From the NCBI GenBank assembly GCA_030917925.1, contig JAUPTV010000227.1, positions 1 to 41,507 on the forward strand: a DNA stretch of 41,507 nt, written 5' to 3'. This document shows, one piece after another, positions 11,966-26,407 of the stretch; within the stretch, counting starts at the first letter, position 1, and each line of letters starts with the position of its first letter. Both the position numbers and the translations under genes were made by a program. A model generated the notes under the pieces. It did no database searches and had not been told where the DNA came from. It saw only the letters and a program-made list of their open reading frames with translations. The stretch is from Pseudomonadota bacterium (GTDB lineage: Bacteria > Pseudomonadota > Gammaproteobacteria > Competibacterales > Competibacteraceae).

Positions 11966-12055
11966 CTTTTTTATTGAATTGAATAGCGTCGTTCTGCCAG
12001 GAAAAAGCCGGACGCACGGGTTCTCGGTACCGTGTGCGCCTGACACGAAAAAAGT

Positions 12056-12410
12056 GGGAACCGGCCTGTAAGCCGGGTTCTGTCGAGGACGGCCATTCAT
12101 CTGCGACGCTTGTCGCCAAGCGCCTGTAGCGACCTACCCAGGAGCCGTGCGGACCACACGTGAATGCTCCTCTATTTGGTCTTGCTCCGGGCGGGGCTTG
12201 CCGTGCCGCGTCTGTTGCCAGCCGCGCGGTGCGCTCTTACCGCACCTTTTCACCCTTGCCGGCTCCCGCAAGCGGGAACGTAGGCGGTTTGTTTTCTGTG
12301 GCGCTTTCCGTCAGTTTGCACTGCCCAGGCGTTACCTGGCGCCCTGTCCTGTGGAGCCCGGACTTTCCTCCATACCGCAATGCGATACAGCGACCGTCCA
12401 GCCGGTTCCC
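12056..12410 (-). ncRNA. rnpB: RNase P RNA, bacterial type A
   Basis: This is the catalytic RNA of RNase P, which trims tRNA and tmRNA 5' leaders. Diagnostic blocks on the minus strand: GAGGAAAGTCCGGGCTCC (12353-12370), AACAAACCGCC (about 12283-12293), the P12-like arm around 12240-12280 with GGTAAGAGCGCACC, and ACAGAACCCGGCTTACAGGCC (12063-12082). The 5' GGAACCGGC and 3' GCCGGTTCC can pair to close the molecule. A run of six T follows at 12048-12053. Length of about 355 nt is normal. It sits just downstream of rsmI on the same strand, a common gammaproteobacterial arrangement. End coordinates are estimates within a few bases. Confidence 0.96.
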
Positions 12411-12448
12411 AATAACTAGTGTCTACCGCTGCACGAGACTTGGCAAGA

Positions 12449-13306
12449 CTAAAGTTGCTCTTTGTCGCCCAGTTGCAACGCCAATTCGTACAGCGCCTTG
12501 CGTTTCAGGCCAGTAGCCTTGACGGCGACAGCCACGGCTCGACCCATCGGCAATTCCTCCAGCAGTGCGGTCAACAATCGGCGAACTTCCGGGGTATCGA
12601 CTTCGGTGAGTACGGCTGACGCGCCCTGGACGAGCACCACAAACTCACCACGGACCCGGTGGGGATCAGTGTCCAGCCAAGCTACGAGTTCACCGAGAGG
12701 CGCACCATGAACCTCCTCGAAACGCTTGGTCAGTTCGCGGGCGATCACTGCCGGACGCTCTGCGCCCAATACTTCGGCCATGTCCGACACGGTTTCGGCG
12801 ATCCGGTGACTGGCTTCCAGAAATACCAGGGTCCGCTCTTCACCAGACAGGGTTTGCAGGCGCTGGCGGCGCGCGGCAGATTTGGCGGGGAGAAAGCCTT
12901 CAAAGATGAAACGATCCGTCGGCAGGCCCGCGACCGACAAGGCGGCCAAAAGGCTGCTGGGTCCCGGAATCGGAATCACTTTCAATCCCTGTTGGCGCAG
13001 TTCGCGCACTAGGGGAAAACCCGGATCGCTGATCAGCGGGGTGCCCGCGTCGGACACCAGCGCCAGCGACTGACCGTCCCGCAGGCGCACCGTGACCTGC
13101 TCGATGCGGGCGTGTTCATTGTGTTCATGCAGGGAAAACTGGGGGGTATCGATCCCGAAATGCGCCAGTAACTGGCCGGTGTGCCGGGTATCCTCGGCAG
13201 CAATGGCGTCAACTTCCCGCAAGATGCGGAGCGCACGGGCGCTGATATCTTCCAGATTGCCAATGGGCGTCGCCACCACATACAAAGCGCCAGATTCAAG
13301 AGTCAT
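12449..13306 (-). CDS. rsmI: 16S rRNA (cytidine1402-2'-O)-methyltransferase RsmI
   Basis: It methylates the ribose of C1402 in 16S rRNA using S-adenosylmethionine. Motifs: YVVATPIGNLEDIS at the N-terminus, AEDTRHT, SDAGTPLISDPG, and IPIPGPSSLLAALSVAG, all typical of the tetrapyrrole-methylase fold of this family. The start at 13306 gives 285 residues, the usual length; a longer frame (to 13414) would add 36 residues lying in the coding region of the previous gene. It overlaps the end of the wbpM-like gene by 11 bp and is followed by rnpB. Confidence 0.95.
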   Translation of the reverse strand: MTLESGALYVVATPIGNLEDISARALRILREVDAIAAEDTRHTGQLLAHFGIDTPQFSLHEHNEHARIEQVTVRLRDGQSLALVSDAGTPLISDPGFPLVRELRQQGLKVIPIPGPSSLLAALSVAGLPTDRFIFEGFLPAKSAARRQRLQTLSGEERTLVFLEASHRIAETVSDMAEVLGAERPAVIARELTKRFEEVHGAPLGELVAWLDTDPHRVRGEFVVLVQGASAVLTEVDTPEVRRLLTALLEELPMGRAVAVAVKATGLKRKALYELALQLGDKEQL

Positions 13307-21434: not shown

Positions 21435-21468
21435 AAAAAAAGGGTCCGGAGATGAATCCGGACCCTTT
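21435..21468 (-). terminator. Intrinsic terminator of ssrA
   Basis: On the minus strand AAAGGGTCCGGA pairs with TCCGGACCCTTT (12 bp) across the loop TTCATC and runs into a tract of seven T. It starts 9 nt after the CCA end of tmRNA. Confidence 0.92.
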
Positions 21469-21493
21469 ACGTTAGTTGGTGGAGGCGGGGGGA

Positions 21494-21760
21494 CAGTAAC
21501 CCCATCATTTTCATGATGGACTGGACTATTCCTTCATCTGGCGATTTACCAGAGGATGGCGTTTATGGAAGTGTGGGACTTCCATCCTAGTGATTCATGG
21601 ATGCCTGACCAGCATCTGTAGAACCCTATGAGTCTCTAGCGGGCTTAGTCGTTTCCGATTCACCCGACGGCGTTGGCGTATCCCGAAAATTTGGGACTTA
21701 GCGTTCACCGTTTGAGCCATCTTTTCCGATAGACATCGCTGTCTATGGCAACCATTTCTA
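21494..21760 (-). other. Group I self-splicing intron (267 nt, IA-like) in the T-loop of tmRNA
   Basis: On the minus strand, P1 forms between exon CGAT plus intron TA and intron TGGTTG with a GAAA loop, placing a U-G pair at the 5' splice site after 21761. The intron ends in G (21494). P2 is ATAGAC/GTCTAT. P3 is GATGGC (21716-21721) with GCCATC (21555-21560). P7 is GACT in the R-like GAGACT (21631-21636) with AGTC in the S-like AAGGAATAGTCC (21524-21527). P8 is TCTGG/CCAGA, and P9 is CCATCAT-GAAA-ATGATGG. Between P7 and P3 lie two extra hairpins (GATGC/GCATC and ATGGAAG/CTTCCAT), the P7.1/P7.2 pattern of subgroup IA. There is no internal ORF, so it has no endonuclease of its own. Confidence 0.92.
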
Positions 21761-21986
21761 ATCGAACCCCCGTCCGCAGATCCTCTGCCTTCGGCCCTAC
21801 ATGCTTAGCCTGGTCTTTGATTTAACCTTTCGCAACCCGACCGGCAGGACGGCGAACGGCGGTTCCGGTGAGTTTTAGCCCCTCCCCCCCGGACAGGTTC
21901 GGTAGCGAGCTTGTGTTAGTCGACCCCTGAATGCCCCGAAGGACTCCGGACCTCACAAGCAAGTTCCGGTCAGAGGCTAGCGGGCT

Positions 21987-22019
21987 TTAAGCCGCCAGAG
22001 CGTAGCTGTCGTCGTTGGC
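21987..22019 (-). other. tmRNA tag reading frame (ANDDSYALAA)
   Basis: The codons GCC AAC GAC GAC AGC TAC GCT CTG GCG GCT TAA encode the ten-residue degradation tag ANDDSYALAA. It ends in the ALAA recognised by ClpXP. It aligns with the E. coli tag ANDENYALAA, differing at two positions, and lies in the expected place after the pseudoknot-1 region. Confidence 0.93.
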
Positions 22020-22125
22020 AACTATGATTTACAGCCAGTTTAACGAGGTGAGCTGCATCCTCGGCATGCGCCTTGGGTTTTGCAATCCCCGTCGAAACCA
22101 AGATCGCCCCCGTAGGTAAGGAGTT

Positions 22126-22158: not shown

Positions 22159-22629
22159 TTAACGATCCCGCATCAGCCGCTGCTTGTCGCGATCCCAATC
22201 CCGATCCTTCTCGGTCGCCCGCTTGTCGTACTCCTTCTTGCCCTTCGCCAGACCAATATCCAGCTTGGCGCGGCTTTTCTTCCAGTACAGTTTCAGCGGG
22301 ATCAAGGTATAGCCCTTGCGCTCGACCGAACCGATCAACCGGCTGATTTCCTCCCGGTGCAACAGCAACCGGCGCGTGCGGGTCGGGTCAGCCTGGACGT
22401 GAGTTGAGGCGGAGACCAGCGGCGAAATATGGCAGCCGAACAGAAACGCTTCGCCGTTTTGCAGCAGCACATAACTTTCCTTCAGATGGGCGCGGCCCGC
22501 CCGCATACTTTTCACTTCCCAGCCTTGCAGCGACAAGCCCGCCTCAAAGTGTTCTTCGATAAAATACTCGTGATACGCTTTCTTGTTGCCGGCGATCTGA
22601 CCGCTCGGCGCTGAGTTTTTCTTGCTCAT
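22159..22629 (-). CDS. smpB: SsrA-binding protein SmpB
   Basis: This 156-residue OB-fold protein binds tmRNA and brings it to stalled ribosomes. Motifs: [20 protein letters not shown] at the N-terminus, [19 protein letters not shown], and [24 protein letters not shown], then the basic C-terminal tail [18 protein letters not shown], which enters the empty mRNA channel. It lies directly upstream of its partner ssrA on the same strand. It is divergent from ratA with about 130 bp between starts. Confidence 0.98.
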
Positions 22630-24751: not shown

Positions 24752-24781
24752 CGGTCAATCACCCCGCCCTAAAGGGCGAGG

Positions 24782-25033
24782 CTTGTGGTGGCTAAAACCG
24801 CAAGTCTAGGTTGACCAGACTCAGCCCAGAACATTGGGCTATGTTGTGTACAGGTTCAAGACTCACCTTGGGGCGCTTCCTCAACTCCAAGCTCTGAAAG
24901 TCCTGGTTGCAGACACGCTGAGGGTCAGCACGAAACGGATCGGGACGCGATGCCGGTACCCAACCTTGTCGAGGGGAGCGAGGCCGCAAGGCTTCCGTCA
25001 CCAGGCGCGTAAGCGCATTGTCGGAGAAGAACG
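24782..25033 (+). ncRNA. Probable omega-RNA (HEARO-type) of the IscB element
   Basis: IscB uses a non-coding RNA encoded just upstream of its ORF, with the guide at the RNA 5' end reaching into the element's left flank. The 250-bp stretch before iscB is unusually structured. Hairpins include AGTCTAGG-TTGA-CCAGACT (24803-24821) and AGCCCA-GAACAT-TGGGCT (24823-24840), with further pairings toward the iscB start. No coding gene fits. The 5' boundary and guide are not fixed by inspection; the guide would fall near 24735-24765. Confidence 0.65.
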
Positions 25034-26407
25034 ATGGCTGTTTTTGTTTTAGATCGACACCAGAAACCGCTGATGCCGTGCAGCGAAAAGCGGGCGAGAA
25101 CGCTCTTGGCGCGAGGTCGCGCACGGGTGCATCGACTGCTGCCGTTTTCAATTCGACTGGTGGATCGGACGGTCAACGAAAGTGTTTTACAACCGGTCAA
25201 AATTAAACTTGATCCGGGAAGCAAGACGACGGGAATGGCTTTGGTGCGTGAATCTAAAAGGGTTGACGACGTAACGGGTGAGATTCACGCGACGGTTCAC
25301 GTTTTGAATTTGTTTGAGCTTCATCATCGCGGGCAACAGATTAGCGATACCCTGACCGCCCGGCGGCAAAGGCGAAGGAGGCGGCGTGGAAACCTACGCT
25401 ATCGAAAGCCCCGGTTCCTGAATCGTGGAAACAAAAGCAAAGGCTGGATCGCCCCCAGTCTGCAACATCGGGTCGATACGACCTTGACGTGGGTGAACCG
25501 CTTGACCCGTTTAGCGCCGATCACCGGGATCGCTCAGGAATTAGTCCGGTTTGATCTACAGCAGATGGAAAACCCGGAGATGTGTGGAATCGAGTATCAA
25601 CAAGGCACCCTTGCAGGTTACGAAACCCGTGAGTATTTGCTGAACAAATGGGGTCGGGAATGCGCCTATTGCGGGGCAAAAAATGTTCCTTTGCAAATGG
25701 ATCATATTCAGCCGAAGGCGCACGGGGGAAGTGACCGAGTTTCTAATTTGACGTTGGCCTGTCAACCCTGCAATCAGCGGAAAGGCGCTCAAGACCTCCA
25801 CGTCTTTTTAGCGAAAGACCCGCAGCGCCTCGCCCGGATTCAAGCGCAAGCGAAACGACCGTTAAAAGATGCGGCAGCGGTGAATACGACCCGCTGGACA
25901 CTGTTCCATGCGCTACAATCCACCGGATTACCGGTCACCACGGGGTCTGGGGGCTTAACGAAGTTTAACCGGATGCATTTAGGAATACCTAAGACCCACG
26001 CGCTGGATGCGGCGTGTGTCGGGTCTATTGACACTTTAAGTGATTGGGAAAAGCCCACCTTGACGATTAAAGCGACTGGGCGAGGAAGCTATCAACGAAC
26101 CCGACTGAATGCCTTTGGCTTTCCCCGAGGTTATTTAACTCGGCAGAAGCGGATTAAAGGTTTTCAGACCGGCGACCTGATTAAAGCCGAAGTGACGAAA
26201 GGGAAAAAAATCGGCACCTATACCGGACGGGTCGCGGTTCGCGCCTCGGGAAATTTCAATATTCAAACGGGACACAGCGTGATTCAGGGTATCGGCTATC
26301 GCTGCTGCCAAGTGCTTCAACGGGCTGATGGGTACGGTTACTCGCCACTCGGCACACCCGAAAAAGAAGCCGAACTTCGTTCGGCCCACTATCCCTCCCC
26401 GGCCTGA
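25034..26407 (+). CDS. iscB: IscB RNA-guided HNH/RuvC nuclease
   Basis: This 457-residue protein has the full IscB layout: the PLMP domain (KPLMPCSEKRARTLLARGRA, residues 11-30), RuvC-I with Asp60 in IKLDPGSKTTG, an Arg-rich bridge helix (about 108-124) and RuvC-II with Glu169. The HNH domain has CAYC (210-213), MDHIQP (Asp223, His224) and a CQPCN pair (243-247). RuvC-III is KTHALDAACVG with His322 and Asp325, and a C-terminal target-adjacent-motif-interacting region follows. All catalytic residues expected for both nuclease sites are present. IscB proteins are the ancestors of Cas9 and cut DNA guided by omega-RNA. GGAG lies 7 nt before the ATG. The stop codon falls in the loop of the right-end hairpin, 27 bp before leuB. 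Confidence 0.94.
   Translation: MAVFVLDRHQKPLMPCSEKRARTLLARGRARVHRLLPFSIRLVDRTVNESVLQPVKIKLDPGSKTTGMALVRESKRVDDVTGEIHATVHVLNLFELHHRGQQISDTLTARRQRRRRRRGNLRYRKPRFLNRGNKSKGWIAPSLQHRVDTTLTWVNRLTRLAPITGIAQELVRFDLQQMENPEMCGIEYQQGTLAGYETREYLLNKWGRECAYCGAKNVPLQMDHIQPKAHGGSDRVSNLTLACQPCNQRKGAQDLHVFLAKDPQRLARIQAQAKRPLKDAAAVNTTRWTLFHALQSTGLPVTTGSGGLTKFNRMHLGIPKTHALDAACVGSIDTLSDWEKPTLTIKATGRGSYQRTRLNAFGFPRGYLTRQKRIKGFQTGDLIKAEVTKGKKIGTYTGRVAVRASGNFNIQTGHSVIQGIGYRCCQVLQRADGYGYSPLGTPEKEAELRSAHYPSPA

Follow-up and report, generated by a model that had tools for sequence, protein, structure and literature searches.

How does an intron that encodes no protein come to sit in the T-loop of a bacterial tmRNA gene, and by what means could it reach other such genes? 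This question is raised by a 41,507-nt contig from a member of the Competibacteraceae (Gammaproteobacteria; JAUPTV010000227.1, assembly GCA_030917925.1), the whole of which we call the window. What is new in our analysis is the location of a mobility gene in this system: a LAGLIDADG gene that lies beside tmRNA, outside the intron.

The interrupted tmRNA gene and its neighbors in the window are arranged as follows:

22159 to 22629, minus strand: smpB, encoding the protein partner of tmRNA (Pfam SmpB, E 2.9e-60)
21761 to 22111, minus strand: tmRNA (ssrA) 5' exon, 351 nt (Rfam RF00023; ARAGORN on the joined exons)
21494 to 21760, minus strand: group I intron, 267 nt, starting TAGAAA and ending ACTG with the terminal G at 21494 (sequence; RF00028; covariation; empty site in relatives)
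21477 to 21493, minus strand: tmRNA 3' exon, TCCCCCCGCCTCCACCA (sequence; ARAGORN on the joined exons)
21439 to 21468, minus strand: terminator-like hairpin directly 3' of CCA (position)

Once the insert is removed, the tmRNA gene is complete and runs from 22111 to 21477 on the minus strand. The 5' exon holds the 5' strand of the acceptor, the tag ANDDSYALAA, the pseudoknots, the T-stem and TTCGAT, and the 3' exon supplies the last T-loop base, the 3' strands of the T-stem and acceptor, and CCA. The gene for SmpB lies directly upstream, with 47 nt between the two. The RF00023 match (163.6 bits) ends in the T-loop at the insert; ARAGORN finds no tmRNA in the unjoined window and calls one, with the tag ANDDSYALAA, when the exons are joined. 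This call was rejected as a test of the exact boundary, because joins shifted by 1-2 nt are called as well. The argument for the terminator-like hairpin is its position rather than its count (one found, 0.9 expected in shuffles). In the genome to which the window belongs, a single tmRNA scores above the cut-off, and there is a single group I match at E <= 0.001.

Two genomes of the same genus, G004 and G005, provide the empty site: their uninterrupted genes read GGACGGGGGTTCGATTCCCCCCGCCTCCACCA, identical to the joined exons across the 32-nt junction, and share 93.5-94.6% identity with the window's exons over the whole gene. Three things set the boundary: the U-G pair in P1, the terminal G, and these uninterrupted genes. 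A repeated T at the junction allows one alternative register, which is ruled out by the final-G rule. The preliminary description of this locus had the tmRNA T-loop split by a group I intron at 21494-21760, and those coordinates are exact. Insertion falls between TTCGAT and T, which is T-loop internucleotide position 7 in the numbering used in the sections of PMC11915505 drawn on here.

A misbinned contig was considered and rejected. Where a full BipA match exists in the same genus (three genomes), the contig's BipA is 91-93% identical to it, compared with 87-91% for the sister genus; the tmRNA exons are 93.5-94.6% identical within the genus versus at most 92.9% for the sister genus. By both measures the contig fits its genome.

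Several observations on the surroundings stand apart from the intron. The smpB gene is upstream of tmRNA in the window and in the sister genus, unlike in G005, G004 and G001 (L020, L023 and L025), where the ~1.5 kb fetched upstream of tmRNA held no good smpB match. In G016 (L022) the tmRNA end is CTCCAAAA and the CCA tail is not encoded. About 3 kb from tmRNA, on the plus strand at 24754-26407, a HEARO RNA (105.3 bits) is followed by an RRXRR-HNH protein, a pair that we take to be IscB with its guide RNA. At 12053-12409 on the minus strand lies a class A RNase P RNA of the usual bacterial kind (335.3 bits).

The 267 inserted nucleotides show the full fold of a group I intron, with these main helices:

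21749 to 21764, minus strand: P1, exon CGAU and intron U (21764-21760) with GGUUG (21753-21749); 100% of cells paired in 13 introns
21729 to 21746, minus strand: P2, AUAGACA/UGUCUAU; both-side changes in 6/7 pairs
21555 to 21721, minus strand: P3, GAUGGC (21721-21716) with GCCAUC (21560-21555); both-side changes in 2/6 pairs, none broken
21524 to 21634, minus strand: P7, GACU (21634-21631) with AGUC (21527-21524), pseudoknotted with P3; placed by RF00028 alignment position
21565 to 21585, minus strand: P7.2-type hairpin, AUGGAAG/CUUCCAU (sequence comparison)
21502 to 21519, minus strand: P9, CCAUCAU GAAA AUGAUGG; both-side changes in 5/7 pairs

We assigned the structure by hand from P1 to P9, with the P7 pseudoknot, as 54 pairs, and examined it in an alignment of the window intron with 12 others (13 of 15 rows; L063 and L255 were dropped because MAFFT moved P3' by one column). 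In this alignment 99.3% of cells pair and 26/54 pairs change on both sides, a level of covariation reached by 0/500 shuffles. Sliding the pairing partners by 1-3 columns leaves 31-44% of cells paired, a comparison that favors the assigned structure, since it was derived from the window sequence. The U-G wobble of P1 at the 5' splice site (columns 10 and 21) is invariant across the 13 introns; P4 and P7 are also invariant and carry no covariation signal either way. Folding energy has a z of -3.24. The group I core is present (P3-P8, with a pseudoknotted P7 and conserved J8/7), as are the U-G pair at the 5' splice site and the terminal G, and chance is ruled out by the exact empty site together with covariation.

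These results bear out a group I intron as proposed in the preliminary description, including its P7.1/P7.2-type hairpins. Of the Rfam models that it named as a check, the one for tmRNA matched at 163.6 bits, and the one for group I introns (RF00028, Intron_gpI) matched weakly, with 26.4 bits (E 1.5e-4) where the curated cut-off is 50. The same description had the intron lacking an ORF, and this holds in that a LAGLIDADG profile found no match at E <= 10 among window ORFs of at least 40 aa. In a looser tblastn of the window, the best matches shown were fragments of 11-24 aa (best E 0.018), where the same search gave 9e-9 for a decayed endonuclease remnant in another genome, G196.

Intron-form tmRNA genes were reportedly described by Williams in 2002, and the window intron alone is an ordinary example of this already known kind. 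The preliminary description called such introns rare, which was too strong: in the sections drawn on here, Nawrocki, Petrov and Williams 2025 (PMC11915505) count 883 intron-form genes among 97,179 unique tmRNA sequences, all interrupted in the T-loop and most at position 7, with position-7 introns in 21 phyla. A LAGLIDADG gene lies inside the intron in 36 of the 883, leaving ~96% without one. Like the genes described in those sections, the window's is restored as a tmRNA by joining the exons, and its intron has the insertion at position 7, the U at -1, the terminal G, the short length and the usual lack of an endonuclease gene inside. The partial text used of a further paper lists the 287-nt tmRNA group I intron of Clostridium botulinum as previously shown to self-splice (PMC2729099). 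That bacterium belongs to a different phylum from the window's, whose intron would be expected from its fold to self-splice.

Among 59 genomes near the window's, a DNA match to the intron was found in four, the window's own and G020, G025 and G029 of the sister genus. The window intron is 86-87% identical to these three; between the window and the sister genus, identity is 89-93% for tmRNA exons (89-91% and 91-93% in two alignments) and 81% for smpB. Within the window's genus, all three genomes with a tmRNA match other than its own are uninterrupted (G001, G004 and G005), and two incomplete genomes gave no tmRNA match. The sister genus also includes two uninterrupted genomes, G013 and G035, and one, G032, for which there was no tmRNA match. 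From these sequences, the presence of the intron in the window's family could reflect vertical descent with losses.

Over a larger distance the picture includes movement. A T-loop intron pattern matched in 18 of 369 genomes of the class, a sample we take to be Gammaproteobacteria since the match coordinates of G082 are those of G407, the genome of the named locus L114; 13 of these matches close a T-arm and were taken as real, and the five that do not were rejected as chance. In another pattern scan, 11 of the 210 matches listed were kept as tmRNA-like. The 13 intron genomes are a floor, as the pattern fixes subsite and length, and five more introns turned up later, that of G230 seen in its 3' part only. 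In G343 and G368, which belong to different families, the introns are 98.1% identical and the tmRNA exons 88.4%, a mismatch that points to horizontal movement. Across 22 genes, the correlation between intron identity and exon identity is weak (rho 0.20). The downstream endonuclease region of G343 and G368 is only 68-80% identical, so in this pair of genomes the intron was not transferred jointly with the endonuclease.

The means of spread, left open in the preliminary description, now has a testable answer in the LAGLIDADG gene that relatives carry beside tmRNA or in the intron. Two of the three closest introns found, those of G020 and G029, are 648 nt long and contain an antisense ORF for a 136-residue LAGLIDADG protein. 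This ORF replaces the loop of the P7.2-type hairpin, which is short in G025 and in the window. With the 136-residue protein as query, matches were found in 15 of 32 genomes. Three of these are G020, G029 and G072, the last on a contig that has no tmRNA; the rest are 12 loci just 3' of an intron-bearing tmRNA, where the gene is on the tmRNA strand and outside the intron (G082 and G407 being one place among the 12). A profile built from alignment A2 matched in 17 of 369 class genomes. Sixteen of them have a match immediately downstream of a tmRNA 3' end, both lying on one contig. The exception is G072, whose gene is split between two contig ends, one piece lying 50 nt past CCA.

The association with the intron is strong. 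An endonuclease gene or remnant lies just 3' of tmRNA, outside the intron, in 11 of the 13 pattern-found intron genomes (nine on one contig, G072 across two contig ends, and G196 as a remnant with five stops); the window's genome and G127 have neither, and the searches made of the G025 genome gave no gene of the tmRNA-linked family. Profile matches occur in 10/13 intron genomes versus 7/356 others (Fisher p = 4.6e-13), and five of those seven are also intron-bearing (G142, G352, G230, G093 and G222). In G116 and G051 a broken gene lies beside an uninterrupted tmRNA. Of 23 rows, 18 have the start of the domain 37-97 nt from CCA and four have it at 130-221 nt; in one the distance is unmeasurable. 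A second gene piece lies 2.5 kb away in G093.

Some of these loci have further structure. On contig C29 of G051, two broken endonuclease copies at 150574 and 158969 (L290 and L292), ~8.4 kb apart, each follow a tmRNA-like 3' end, and the arrangement looks like an island in an uninterrupted tmRNA. Beyond the endonuclease gene of L276 (G082, at 1985) and of L288 (G222, at 1960) there is another T-arm with a tmRNA 3' end, GGGTTCGATTCCCGCCGCCTCCACCA, this one uninterrupted, as though a single unit made up of intron, 3' exon and endonuclease had gone in and displaced the old 3' end.

All 11 aligned members of the protein family match Pfam LAGLIDADG_3, and 8/11 match LAGLIDADG_1. Among PDB entries the profile matches I-MsoI best, at E 1.7e-12 for an engineered single chain and 2.5e-5 for the native protein. 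Judged by substitutions between the G020 and G029 genes (dN 0.02, dS 0.12), the endonuclease gene is under purifying selection; in six older pairs dS is saturated or above 2. For the endonuclease of L114, AlphaFold gave a low-confidence model (mean pLDDT 56), whose Foldseek matches to I-MsoI, I-CreI and I-CvuI mildly back a predicted I-MsoI-like fold. I-MsoI and I-CreI are intron-encoded in rRNA genes. They share with the tmRNA-linked proteins one LAGLIDADG motif and a length of about 150 residues, whereas the Gammaproteobacteria proteins are, unlike them, mostly encoded outside the intron.

The same family occurs in Clostridia. In a sample of 391 genomes from the class of G424 (L069, Lachnospiraceae), endonuclease matches were found in 16, of which 12 are at tmRNA or its 3' end, nine by model and three by eye. 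Six of the nine tmRNAs found by model are interrupted and three are not; by eye, a tmRNA 3' end or remnant is seen in L377, L385 and L387, that of L385 truncated. No tmRNA was found near the gene in the genomes G571, G609, G730 and G802 (4/16). The gene faces tmRNA from the 3' side at nine Clostridia loci and in Clostridium sp. L070, and several Clostridia copies have internal stops or are fragments.

Viral contigs add a further set, for which the best 80 of 146 relatives were kept and 26 of the 28 best counted as loci (L298 and L315 were taken as duplicates, and not all of the 26 are independent). A tmRNA or permuted-tmRNA match is found at the gene in 21/26, with those of L316, L318 and L319 below the Rfam cut-off; three more loci have a group I match, so that 24/26 have a tmRNA or a group I intron. 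L299 and L305 have no tmRNA near the gene. In 13 weaker-scoring viral relatives there was no tmRNA (0/13), and three had a group I match. At six loci (L297, L301, L302, L316, L319 and L323) a T-loop intron holds the gene in antisense orientation and both T-arm halves are seen; at L311 and L314 the gene lies beside an uninterrupted T-arm. Beyond bacterial genomes and viral contigs, 23 phage records had matches, below 60% identity, and plasmids gave no endonuclease relative at E 1e-5. There was no match in the phylum of G416 (6 genomes only) or in seven further genomes reached via chance loci.

Other RNAs were seen near these viral loci, namely Pistol ribozymes within a few kb of the endonuclease/tmRNA loci L316, L319 and L323, and a GOLLD RNA within a few kb of L322. 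On a 165-kb viral contig (L184, IMGVR_UViG_3300030508_000013), positions 12381-12838 of the minus strand hold a permuted tmRNA with a 236-nt T-loop group I intron. The permuted-tmRNA model scores it at 40.4 bits (cut-off 47), and with its exons joined ARAGORN calls a permuted tmRNA with the tag ASNDSTYDQRLAA. A tmRNA both permuted and intron-bearing is absent from the forms tabulated in the sections of PMC11915505 drawn on here.

Where its placing can be resolved, the gene keeps to the T-arm in both normal and permuted tmRNAs. Normal tmRNAs have their T-arm at the 3' end, with the gene 3' of it or within the intron. Permuted viral tmRNAs carry the T-arm at the 5' end, and five of them have the gene 5', at 12-81 nt from the T-loop in L296, L300, L304 and L306 and at about 69 nt in L307. 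The T-arm was not located in the permuted viral loci L303, L310, L312 and L317; in L303, L312 and L317 the match to the permuted model spans the gene. The T-arm forms an inverted repeat. The protein carries a single LAGLIDADG motif and resembles I-MsoI, which is a homodimer. From sequence, we infer that the T-arm is the target of the endonuclease. In the reading that we think likely, a tmRNA-specific LAGLIDADG family found in Gammaproteobacteria, Clostridia and phages recognizes the T-arm, sits at the nearest dispensable spot and mobilizes ORF-less introns in trans; the inverted repeat would suit a homodimer, the window intron would be an orphan, and the sister genus would have captured the gene in its intron.

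Such an arrangement looks like collaborative homing, in which an ORF-less group I intron is paired with a free-standing endonuclease gene adjoining the interrupted gene (Hausner 2014, PMC3984707; PMC10448857). In the parts of those papers drawn on here the described cases are phage genes, whereas the interrupted gene here is one for a chromosomally encoded bacterial RNA. In the window's genome no endonuclease gene lies beside the interrupted gene, so that pair is lacking. The sections of PMC11915505 drawn on here describe LAGLIDADG genes inside introns and do not mention genes beside tmRNA or an antisense orientation. In the open-licence PMC literature, we found no publication on an endonuclease gene beside tmRNA.

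With good confidence, we therefore describe the window intron as a putative self-removing group I ribozyme of a mostly ORF-less tmRNA intron family that would be spread by tmRNA-linked LAGLIDADG homing, the window copy being an orphan or having homed in trans. Judging from its fold, the intron would leave the tmRNA precursor with the help of a guanosine cofactor and the T-loop would be rejoined. The single-motif endonuclease would cleave uninterrupted tmRNA genes in or close to the T-arm; repair templated by an intron-bearing copy would then install the intron. The window's lineage may then have lost the endonuclease and kept the intron by splicing alone, or its copy may have homed in trans. 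As no endonuclease of this family is found in the window's genome, nothing shows that this copy ever had one; with G025 lacking it as well, an orphan or trans-homed copy is most likely, and the window intron is probably an orphan.

Alternatively, the intron may be an ORF-less element that is vertically inherited and repeatedly lost, the endonuclease of relatives being irrelevant to the window copy. Descent predicts an intron identity (86-87%) between that of smpB (81%) and of the exons (89-93%), and no endonuclease was found in the window's genome. We nonetheless consider this unlikely, given the three uninterrupted same-genus genomes and, elsewhere in the class, introns at 98.1% against exons at 88.4% with a rho of 0.20 over 22 genes. 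It is quite unlikely that the endonuclease is instead a passenger of islands that attach at the tmRNA 3' end, and that it cuts there and not in the T-loop, its link to the intron being a shared address. The two G051 copies ~8.4 kb apart, the truncated tmRNA end by the gene in L385 and the second uninterrupted T-arm and 3' end after the gene in G082 and G222 are in keeping with this, as is the frequent use of tmRNA as a genomic island site (PMC11915505, in the sections drawn on here). Yet five permuted viral tmRNAs have the gene at the other end, again beside the T-arm, the T-loop introns of G020, G029 and six viral loci contain homologues, and the intron association within one class is strong (p = 4.6e-13).

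Two further explanations were considered. Reverse splicing into tmRNA followed by reverse transcription, with no endonuclease involved, would fit a window intron that has no endonuclease ORF, and our pattern, which admitted one T-loop subsite only, cannot show that introns are confined to it; however, this route does not predict an endonuclease gene or remnant linked to 11/13 pattern-found introns, and we judge it very unlikely. As follows from tRNA biology, the intron must leave for the T-arm to work, and the preliminary description suggested that splicing could gate ribosome-rescue capacity, tying it to GTP and magnesium, which would make the intron regulatory. No result of this analysis supports that role, which we regard as extremely improbable: sporadic presence, uninterrupted same-genus genes and the 883 scattered examples counted in the sections of PMC11915505 drawn on here fit a selfish element instead.

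The position of the tmRNA-linked endonuclease gene has consequences for how these introns are studied. In the sampled Gammaproteobacteria, a search inside introns alone overlooks a gene whose start mostly lies 37-97 nt beyond CCA. T-arm cleavage by the enzyme, if real, would explain how ORF-less tmRNA introns spread across the 21 phyla given in the sections of PMC11915505 drawn on here, and collaborative homing would extend from phage genes to a bacterial chromosomal RNA gene. The free-standing, captured, decayed and lost stages of a homing endonuclease would then be comparable at one site.
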